Source: Acidobacteriota bacterium (GTDB lineage Bacteria > Acidobacteriota > Blastocatellia > UBA7656). Taken from it: DNA of 64,000 nt. Below, one piece after another: positions 16,845-34,805 of this stretch. A program made the translations under genes and the position numbers. Each line of letters starts with the position of its first letter. The first letter of the stretch is position 1. The notes below the pieces were generated by a model. It was not told where the DNA came from. It ran no database searches and worked only from the letters and a program-made list of their open reading frames with translations. The stretch is taken from NCBI GenBank assembly GCA_038040445.1, contig JBBPIG010000015.1, positions 62,001 to 126,000 of the forward strand. Reading direction: 5' to 3'.

Positions 16845-17612
16845 TCAGCGTGGATCAGCGGTTATTTCCGATCCGTCTCGCCCAACGATCACCTCGCCCG
16901 AGTACTCGCGTTCCAACTCGGCCTTCAGCTCGCCTTCATTCACCTCGAAGTAAAAGTGGGTGACTATGAGTTTCGCGGCTCCTGCCTGAGCCGCTAAGCG
17001 AGCCGCTTGCCTCACCGATAGATGTGGCACACCCTCGCGAGGCTCGCGAAAAGAACACTCCGAAATCAGCAAGTCCGCCTTGTTGAAAAAGCGCGCCAGC
17101 TCCTCGCTGTAGTCCGTGTCCCCGGTGTAACAGAGCGCGCGGCCGCGGCTTTCGATCCTGACCGCCAGGCTTTCTTCCGTGTGTGGCGTCTTCTCGACCG
17201 AAAGCGTCGAGTCGCTTCCCAGTTCAAGCCTCTCGCCCGGCGTTAGCATTCTCACGCTGACCGGAAACTTCGCTTCGAAGAGTTTCGAGCCGAACGCCAT
17301 CTTGAGTCCGTCCATTACGCGGTCGAGCCCGCGCGGACCGATGATTGTGAAAGGCTCCTTGCGATCGGTTTTCATTCCGTACTGAAACGCGAAGAACAAA
17401 GAAGCCAGTTCGCCAATGTGGTCTACGTGAAAGTGGCTGACGAACAGGTGAGTCATCTGATCCCATGGCAAACCGTATCGGGCGAGCGCGTGCACGGTTC
17501 CGGCTCCGCAGTCCATCATGACTCGCGCATCGGGCAGTTCGACGAAGTAGCCGGCAGAGTTTCGCGAACCGCTTGGGACAACAGTGCCTGAACCGAGGAT
17601 CGTCAATTTCAC
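16845..17612 (-). CDS. MBL-fold hydrolase, RNase Z-like
   Basis: A 255-residue metallo-beta-lactamase-fold enzyme. The frame runs further upstream through a repeat element, but GTG 17612 has GAGGTAAG upstream and begins the family's VKLTILGSGTVVPSG, so I start there. Zinc-site motifs are SHFHVDHIGELASL, MMDCGAGTVH, CYTGDTDYSEEL and VTHFYF. The length and the first strand match RNase Z/arylsulfatase-like members, but nuclease activity is not assured; phosphodiesterase or quinolone-response lactonase-type roles are possible. The MITE-like palindrome at 17695-17918 lies in its promoter region. Confidence 0.88.
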   Translation of the reverse strand: MKLTILGSGTVVPSGSRNSAGYFVELPDARVMMDCGAGTVHALARYGLPWDQMTHLFVSHFHVDHIGELASLFFAFQYGMKTDRKEPFTIIGPRGLDRVMDGLKMAFGSKLFEAKFPVSVRMLTPGERLELGSDSTLSVEKTPHTEESLAVRIESRGRALCYTGDTDYSEELARFFNKADLLISECSFREPREGVPHLSVRQAARLAAQAGAAKLIVTHFYFEVNEGELKAELEREYSGEVIVGRDGSEITADPR

Positions 17613-17694
17613 TGTGCTTACCTCGAACTTGTGCGCTAAGAGTGCTCCGCATTCTATCACGCGGGTTGTGGGCAGCACACGAACACCAACTGAC

Positions 17695-17918
17695 GGTAGT
17701 GTCCTAATCTTGTGTTGATATTTGCAGGTGCCCTGGCGCACGGCCGATGACGAGCGACGGAATATTTGGACTGCGGCGGCCTTTGTGCGTTGCCGCCGCT
17801 TTTTGGTTATCGTCGACGAAACGACAGAAAGCGGTGGCAACGCAAAGACGCCACCGCAGTCCAAATACGCGGTCGCTAATAGTGTCCTACTTGACCAACA
17901 CAAGATTAGAACACTACC
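17695..17918. mobile_element. MITE-like palindromic element, copy 1
   Basis: A 224-bp near-complete palindrome. Its ends are inverted copies of GGTAGTGTCCTAATCTTGTG (right end read in reverse, one mismatch), and an inner pair of arms near 17762-17810 and 17828-17869 is also inverted. The word CAACTGAC occurs directly on both sides (17687-17694 and 17919-17926), as expected of an 8-bp target duplication. It has no coding capacity. A second copy is at 34548-34758. Confidence 0.85.
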
Positions 17919-18038
17919 CAACTGACCCGTTTGTTGACACACGACTATCCGTTACTCTAGCATCGCACGAGTCGGTCAGCGGCGTCGGTCAATCCATGGA
18001 CGCTGCTCAGCAACGGATCGAGCGGCGCGCAAGGACGA

Positions 18039-19283
18039 ATGACGGCACCGAAGACTAAGCAAGCCGAAGCGGCCGAGCAAACAGATTCACCTTCCCGCGC
18101 CGGCGTCGTAATAGCCATCCTCTTTCTGGTTTTCTTTTTGGGCAGCAGCGATCACCAGATGATCTCGCCTTTGCTTCCTCTCATCGCGCGCGAGTTTGGA
18201 CTAAAGGAAGGCGAAGTCGGACGGCTGATCGGTCCGGCCTATGCGCTGGCGGCGGCGACCGCGGCATTGCTGGTTGGCCCACTCTCTGACCGCTTCGGGC
18301 GGCGCAGGTTCCTGCTATACGCTTCGATTCTGTTCGGGGTGTCGCTGGTTTCGGTCTGGCTAGTCGCCGATGTTCGAGTGCTCACAGGCGTGAGGCTGTT
18401 GACGGGGCTTGCGGCCGGGACCTTTTCAACTTGTTCGATTGCTTACGTGGCGGACTACTTTCCGTATAAGCGCCGGGCCGTGGCGATGAGCATAGTGCAA
18501 GCCGGCTACTTCGGAGCGCTGGTCGTGGGAGTCCAGATCGCGAACAACATCGCGCAGTGGCAGGGCTGGCGCATAAGCTTCGTTGCGTTCGGCTTGTTGT
18601 CGATGGTTGCCTTCCTGTCAGTGCTCGCCCTGCTGCCCGAGGACAAGCACCTGATGACGGATCAGGGGCCTTCGGCGATCGTCGCGGGCAGATTTCACAA
18701 TATCAGAATGCTCTTCGACAATCGCGAACGCGTTGCCGCCATCGCAGCGGCGTTCTTTGTGTCCGGTGGATTCGTCGGCTTCTTTTTCTATCTCGGATCC
18801 TGGCTGAAGCAAAGCCTTCAGTTTACGACTCGCGATTTTGATCTTGTGTTCGCGTTGATCGGCGTGGCCCTGCTGATAGGCGTGGTCGTTGCGGGGCCGG
18901 TATCAGACAGAGTCGGCAAGCGGGGCGTCTCAATACTCAGCACGATTCTGCTGGCCGCGATGCTGCTGATCATTCCGGCGCTGGGCCGGGGCGTCCTGCT
19001 GCACGCGTGCTTGATGGCGGCCGCGCTCGCCTTCTCATTTCGACAGGGCCCACTGCAAGCGCTGGCGACGGAACTGGTGCCTCGACGATCGCGCGGCACA
19101 TTGGTCGCGGCTCGCAACACCGCTTCGCAGATCGGCATCGCCATCGCGACGGTGGCTTGCGGCCAGCTCTACGATCACGTGGGCTATCGGGCCGTCGGGC
19201 TGTTCAGCGGAATCGTGACCTTAGCCGCGGCCGTTTGCATCTTTATCATGAAAGAGCCGAATGAAAGAGCCGATTCTGGTTGA
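18039..19283 (+). CDS. MFS transporter
   Basis: A 414-residue, 12-helix permease beginning at ATG 18039 with AAGGA upstream. The cytoplasmic loop motif after helix 2 is GPLSDRFGRRRFLL, and the second half repeats it as GPVSDRVGKRGVSIL. Helix 5 carries the GYFGALVVG stretch. The substrate cannot be told; relatives export drugs or sugars. The last codons overlap the possible TTG start of the alpha/beta hydrolase, so the two are probably co-transcribed. Confidence 0.9.
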   Translation: MTAPKTKQAEAAEQTDSPSRAGVVIAILFLVFFLGSSDHQMISPLLPLIAREFGLKEGEVGRLIGPAYALAAATAALLVGPLSDRFGRRRFLLYASILFGVSLVSVWLVADVRVLTGVRLLTGLAAGTFSTCSIAYVADYFPYKRRAVAMSIVQAGYFGALVVGVQIANNIAQWQGWRISFVAFGLLSMVAFLSVLALLPEDKHLMTDQGPSAIVAGRFHNIRMLFDNRERVAAIAAAFFVSGGFVGFFFYLGSWLKQSLQFTTRDFDLVFALIGVALLIGVVVAGPVSDRVGKRGVSILSTILLAAMLLIIPALGRGVLLHACLMAAALAFSFRQGPLQALATELVPRRSRGTLVAARNTASQIGIAIATVACGQLYDHVGYRAVGLFSGIVTLAAAVCIFIMKEPNERADSG

Positions 19284-34547: not shown

Positions 34548-34758
34548 GGTAGTGTTCTAATCTTGTGTTGGTCGATCGACTAGGACACGATCGGGCGACC
34601 GCGTATTTGGACTGCGGTGGCGTTTTTGCGTTGCCGCCGCTTTTTGTTACCGCCCATGAAACGACAGAAAGCGGTGGCAACGCAAAGACGCCACCGCAGT
34701 CCAAATACGCCCTCGCTTGAGAGTGTCCTAGTCGACCAACTCAAGATTAGGACACTAC
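34548..34758. mobile_element. MITE-like palindromic element, copy 2
   Basis: A 211-bp copy of the element at 17695, with the same outer TIR (GGTAGTGTTCTAATCTTGTG and its reverse complement), the same inner arms and a shared core word GAAACGACAGAAAGCGGTGG. The flanks share only TCTTG, so a target duplication is eroded or absent. It sits 13 bp after tlyA and just ahead of the FHA-protease gene. Confidence 0.85.
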
Positions 34759-34805
34759 GCGTCTTGCTGACCACCAGGGGCTGTCTTAGAATCTGCAAGT
34801 AACAG

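Follow-up and report, generated by a model that had tools for sequence, protein, structure and literature searches.

The window analyzed here, 64,000 nt of Acidobacteriota bacterium GCA_038040445.1 (contig JBBPIG010000015.1, positions 62,001 to 126,000 of the forward strand), harbors two divergent genes, an MBL-fold hydrolase gene (Lactamase_B_2; 16845 to 17612, minus strand) and an MFS transporter gene (18039 to 19283, plus strand), whose start sides face each other across an interval occupied by a 224-bp element (17695 to 17918). The element, delimited on the sequence and by its copies in the genome, is flanked by an 8-bp target-site duplication, CAACTGAC, found at 17687 to 17694 and again at 17919 to 17926 both in the sequence as read and in the alignment of the copies. 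A pattern search places its 23-bp terminal inverted repeats at 17695 to 17717 (left, GGTAGTGTCCTAATCTTGTGTTG, plus strand) and at 17896 to 17918 (right, GGTAGTGTTCTAATCTTGTGTTG, minus strand), with one mismatch between the two; the chance expectation for this 23-mer end in the window, allowing up to 3 mismatches, is 0.00. At the right side, the end core recurs subterminally (ATAGTGTCCTA; 17879 to 17889, plus strand), so that this end alone contains a small inverted repeat. Inside lies a 101-bp core (17765 to 17865) made of two inverted REP-like units, TTTGGACTGCGGCGGC...GCCGCCGCTTT, separated by a 31-nt loop.

The first-pass annotation had described this near-palindrome with its long terminal inverted repeats, and its coordinates proved correct to the base; the inner inverted arms that it reported are likewise present, but it missed that they constitute a separate repeat also found without the outer ends. 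Folded as single-stranded DNA, the 224-bp near-palindrome reaches -72.8 kcal/mol versus a mean of -34.5 for shuffled sequences (z = -11.5), and none of 200 shuffles matched its stability. The open frames running through it are incidental only, in keeping with its earlier description as non-coding, and an Rfam scan of the element returned just microRNA hairpin models, all far under their gathering scores, which we read as unspecific matches to a hairpin. Being short, non-coding, and bounded by terminal inverted repeats, the element has the makeup of a MITE.

Searches of the whole assembly (6.75 Mb, 72 contigs) recovered 20 bounded copies of 199 to 226 bp, 87 to 99% identical to the 224-bp consensus, which occupy many unrelated places in both orientations. 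Perfect 8-bp target duplications, each of a different sequence and at unrelated sites, flank 12 of the 20, as expected of a MITE present in multiple copies; three more copies have a duplication with one mismatch, and none is recognizable at the remaining five, which fits copies that are older or have been rearranged. The chance of an identical pair of flanking 8-mers is about 1 in 65,000 per copy, and 12 perfect duplications of different sequence, together with three near-perfect ones, argue that the duplication is not fortuitous. Further copies with clean, differing duplications were one of the checks proposed in the first-pass annotation, and its claim that the duplication records an insertion is supported. 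In all copies with an intact duplication its length is 8 bp, within the 8- to 9-bp range of IS1-derived elements. The end sequence (up to 3 mismatches) gave 28 matches on each strand of the genome, whereas the control, the same pattern reversed, gave 11 and 9. Some copies are still 98 to 99% identical to the consensus, and the second copy in the window (34548 to 34759; 212 bp, 88% identity to the consensus) is older and has no intact target duplication.

Contigs C65 and C58 both end inside one further copy, with AAACAAAG as common duplication, and contigs C15 and C46 end in copies whose flanks, CTCGGTTG and ATCGGTTG, are alike at 7 of 8 positions. Since several contigs stop inside copies at the hairpin, the assembly may undercount the family, and our figure of about 25 copies is an estimate that combines the 20 bounded copies with split and partial ones. 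At both pairs of assembly breaks, the matching target duplications offer contig joins. We considered these four contig ends as parts of longer, autonomous elements and rejected them, as they look like copies broken at the hairpin; single-ended matches on C2, C6, C7, and C11, considered as hidden autonomous copies, were likewise discarded, being surrounded by ordinary genes without a transposase.

An empty counterpart of the locus is found in the MAG Chloracidobacterium sp. UBA7656, in which the order of the phosphodiesterase, MBL, and MFS genes is the same and the MBL-MFS interval lacks the element. The only two exact 10-bp blocks common to the two intervals, CATTCTATCA and TTGTTGACAC, bracket the point of insertion at a spacing of 46 bp in UBA7656 and of 49 bp here after subtraction of the insert and one duplication, and no such block pair arose by chance in 2000 shuffles. 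A permissive local alignment of the UBA7656 interval is not significant by itself (score of 40 versus a shuffle maximum of 59), so that the argument from block spacing is carried by the exact-block test. Elsewhere, the insertion of copy L008 is absent from six same-family relatives, with which its flanking gene aligns at 74 to 85% identity up to ~50 bp from the insertion, whereas copy L004 provided no usable empty site, its neighboring gene content being different in the congener G001. Because intergenic DNA has diverged, none of these comparisons is an empty-site alignment exact to the base.

The element had been assigned to the promoter side of the MBL gene. It does lie between the divergent MBL and MFS starts, but nearer to the predicted MFS promoter than to anything of the MBL gene; this promoter-like site (TTGACA at 17934, 18, TAGCAT; 17934 to 17963, plus strand) is defined by a consensus match only. 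Its first hexamer starts 8 bp beyond the end of the right target duplication, and TTGTTGACAC, the block with its TTGACA, is conserved in UBA7656; hence, the predicted core MFS promoter seems to have been spared by the insertion. The position of the element just upstream of this site, together with one stem whose T-rich tail scores as terminator-like, could be taken to mean that it has been retained between the divergent genes for a regulatory role or as a hairpin that ends transcripts, and that its location at 17695 is selected. We consider this improbable, since one terminator-like site is at the level of shuffled sequences (mean of 0.7), the other copies show no such constancy of place or orientation, and UBA7656 does without the element.

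The outer part and the core are separable, as each exists alone in this genome. A shell-only copy of 92 bp (C1:478304-478395) lacks the core and has CAAGTTCA on each side as a perfect duplication, and the core units TTTGGACTGCGGCGGC...GCCGCCGCTTT recur, as pairs and as single units, at other genomic sites where the outer ends are lacking, and are also present in the congener G001. Because the core occurs independently, we favor its capture by the shell over an origin of the 92-bp form by deletion. In two copies, L016 (C50:15622) and L017 (C31:54552), the loop between the inner arms agrees better with the loop sequence in reversed than in forward orientation (17 versus 5.5 and 3), which suggests, from the sequence, that these loops were inverted by recombination between the arms.

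The core has the layout of a REPIN, namely, two inverted REP units of a kind that is dispersed through the genome, which also contains seven Y1_Tnp matches. The unit might then be primarily a REP/REPIN-type palindrome spread by an HUH tyrosine transposase (RAYT), with incidental outer ends. However, the core REP motif was not found within 1.5 kb of any of the seven Y1_Tnp loci, i.e., no linked RAYT is flanked by the same REP, and for this reason we do not file the core as a REPIN, REPIN-like though it is. Moreover, HUH enzymes are not known to make target duplications, whereas the 12 perfect 8-bp duplications are located exactly at the outer ends and the shell-only copy has one too. Thus, a RAYT-driven spread appears very unlikely. 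As a separate observation, what looks like a REP and RAYT arrangement is present on contig C4 (~66 to 70 kb; L171/L172), where 10 copies of the palindrome CCACCAACKCAGTTGGTGG, in either orientation, lie around two Y1_Tnp matches.

That a transposase located elsewhere must act on the element had been proposed from its non-coding nature. When 162 genomes of the class were searched for the end pattern, long elements with matching ends emerged, namely, IS1-family (DDE_Tnp_IS1) transposons of 2.6 to 5.2 kb with related GGTAGTGTCC... ends and passenger genes. In G131, a 5.2-kb element is bounded by these ends and by the duplication GGAATTCC, and in G067 a 4.8-kb element has the duplication AAAAAGGG; each encodes an IS1-type transposase of 333 to 335 residues and a DNA methyltransferase. 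A search with the transposase of these two elements found relatives in 33 of the 162 genomes, and in 13 genomes of the class other than ours (G131, G067, G003, G084, G008, G116, G106, G159, G032, G139, G148, G072, and G153) the IS1-type transposase is spanned by GGTAGTG/GGTGATG end pairs with identical 8-bp duplications. Against PF03400 (DDE_Tnp_IS1; cut-off of 24.1 bits), the G131 transposase scores 34.1 bits and a transposase relic on contig C5 of our genome 29.0 bits, both above the cut-off, and the conserved D, D, and E motifs are visible in the transposase alignment; the likely partner transposase is, as for an IS1-derived element, an IS1-type DDE enzyme. The NCBIfam IS1 equivalog model gives 51.8 bits, and 43 bits in our genome, under its cut-off of 100 bits, so that we regard these transposases as divergent IS1 relatives and file them as IS1-type, not as canonical IS1. 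The ends and the 8-bp duplication by themselves also fit IS256-like elements, and IS256 was our first guess from the ends, but the genome contains no Transposase_mut match, for which reason we rejected IS256 as the source family, and in 13 elements an IS1-type transposase lies physically between such ends. An origin from a different DDE family that makes 8-bp duplications and has GG...TGTC-like ends, with a coincidental likeness to IS1-type ends, is thus very unlikely.

The passengers of these IS1-type transposons, which are ~3 to 5 kb long with perfect 8-bp duplications, include an N6/N4 DNA methyltransferase with an Mrr-like part in G131 (L115, G131:C124) and G067 (L116, G067:C117), and a HigB-like toxin with an HTH/IrrE-like gene on contig C14 of our genome (L177), the HTH/IrrE-like gene being found in G067 as well. 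Further IS1-type transposons carrying passengers are L175, L178, L179, L183, L184, L185, L187, L188, L189, and L191. Short elements of 139 to 663 bp with like ends and perfect 8-bp duplications were also seen, several of which enclose long palindromes: L098 (G006:C29, 1092 to 1523), L096 and L103 (G019, 1501 to 1661), L088 (G066, 978 to 1116), and L095 (G156, 1501 to 2163).

In the genome of the element itself, the 5'-truncated transposase fragment at C5:120971-121657 is nearest (66%) to the transposase of G003:C64. This G003 element is the nearest intact one; its ends, GGTGATGTCTTAATCTTGTGTGG, have TAATCTTGTGT in common with the 224-bp element, with 4 of 23 positions differing between the two. 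The MITE ends are thus related, not identical, to those of transposase-bearing elements. One complete IS1-type element, of a second subgroup, is located at ~C14:103250-106708, with the duplication GAGCCGCG and the ends GGTAGTGGTTCAATTTGACTTC. The 72 contigs yielded no intact transposase of the subgroup that matches the MITE. Transposons with related ends do occur in relatives, where the first-pass annotation had proposed to look for them, but the cognate one is not intact here, and the mobilizer is a likely one. On sequence comparison, we favor a cognate transposon of the first subgroup (G003-like) that has decayed in this genome, although a cognate copy may lie inside an assembly gap or the C14 enzyme may cross-mobilize the MITE.

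Altogether, we propose that the element is, in all likelihood, an IS1-derived MITE with a REP-like core, for whose movement an IS1-family DDE transposase acted in trans. Its origin would be a short shell with IS1-type ends, of which the 92-bp shell-only copy would be a survivor; this shell would then have gained a genome-resident REP-like double palindrome, and the resulting composite would have multiplied to ~25 copies. At each insertion, (i) the transposase supplied in trans would recognize the MITE ends, (ii) it would cut at GGTAGTGTCC... and join the element to a target cleaved with an 8-bp stagger, and (iii) repair of this cut would produce the 8-bp duplication. The autonomous partner probably resembled the 4.0-kb transposon that is intact in the same-family member G003 and would have decayed here to the 5'-truncated relic. 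The copies now seem largely stranded.

The MITE has in common with the IS1-family transposons of the class (e.g., G003:C64, G131:C124, and G067:C117) the GGTAGTG/GGTGATG ends, the 8-bp duplication, and a TTGTGTTG-like subterminal box, but these are 2.6 to 5.2 kb long and carry a DDE transposase and passengers, both absent from the MITE. IS1-family ends with 8-bp duplications have been reported for a relative of ISAba3 (PMC6382973); the ISAba3-type IS1 elements of Moraxellaceae have ends starting with GGTGGTGTTTC and 8-bp duplications, whereas their ends differ past the first bases, the elements are autonomous, and their hosts belong to a different phylum (PMC6382973). Short elements that an IS mobilizes in trans are well known, and MITEAba12 is an example, being short and non-coding with terminal repeats and a proposed mobilization of this type, although it is 113 bp long, makes 9-bp duplications, is partnered with ISAba12, and has no REP core (PMC6382973). 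A repetitive extragenic palindrome enclosed in a MITE has been described in a review for QMITE2 of Coxiella burnetii (PMC10969869), in another host and with a GTAG-type palindrome; we liken the two on the description given there. With REPINs and REPs (PMC3116915, PMC3733652), our element shares a dispersed core of two inverted palindromic units, but these begin with GGAC and not GTAG, and no RAYT gene was found adjacent. The element thus represents a new MITE family of an already well-known kind, whose REP-in-MITE architecture has a precedent in QMITE2.

Other gene-less elements of the class with like ends enclose strong palindromes too: the core of the 432-bp element of G006 is made of CCCCAACTGCGTTGGGG units, and that of the 160-bp element of G019 is a long perfect palindrome. 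A speculative extension, which we hold to be rather doubtful, is that IS1-type miniature shells of this class repeatedly capture resident palindromes as their core (GGACTGCGGCGGC units in the present case), because a strong internal hairpin would aid the pairing of the ends for transposition or reduce the harm done by the insert. If true, palindrome capture would be a recurrent route to success for gene-less elements.

Our analysis adds a MITE family of IS1-type descent to a little-studied bacterial class and identifies, through common ends and target duplications, the probable kind of its source transposon. The IS1-type transposons with their passengers, among them DNA methyltransferases and a HigB/HigA-like pair, are useful for mobile-element annotation. 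Since shell and core are each also found on their own in this genome, the composite lets one trace how a MITE is put together.
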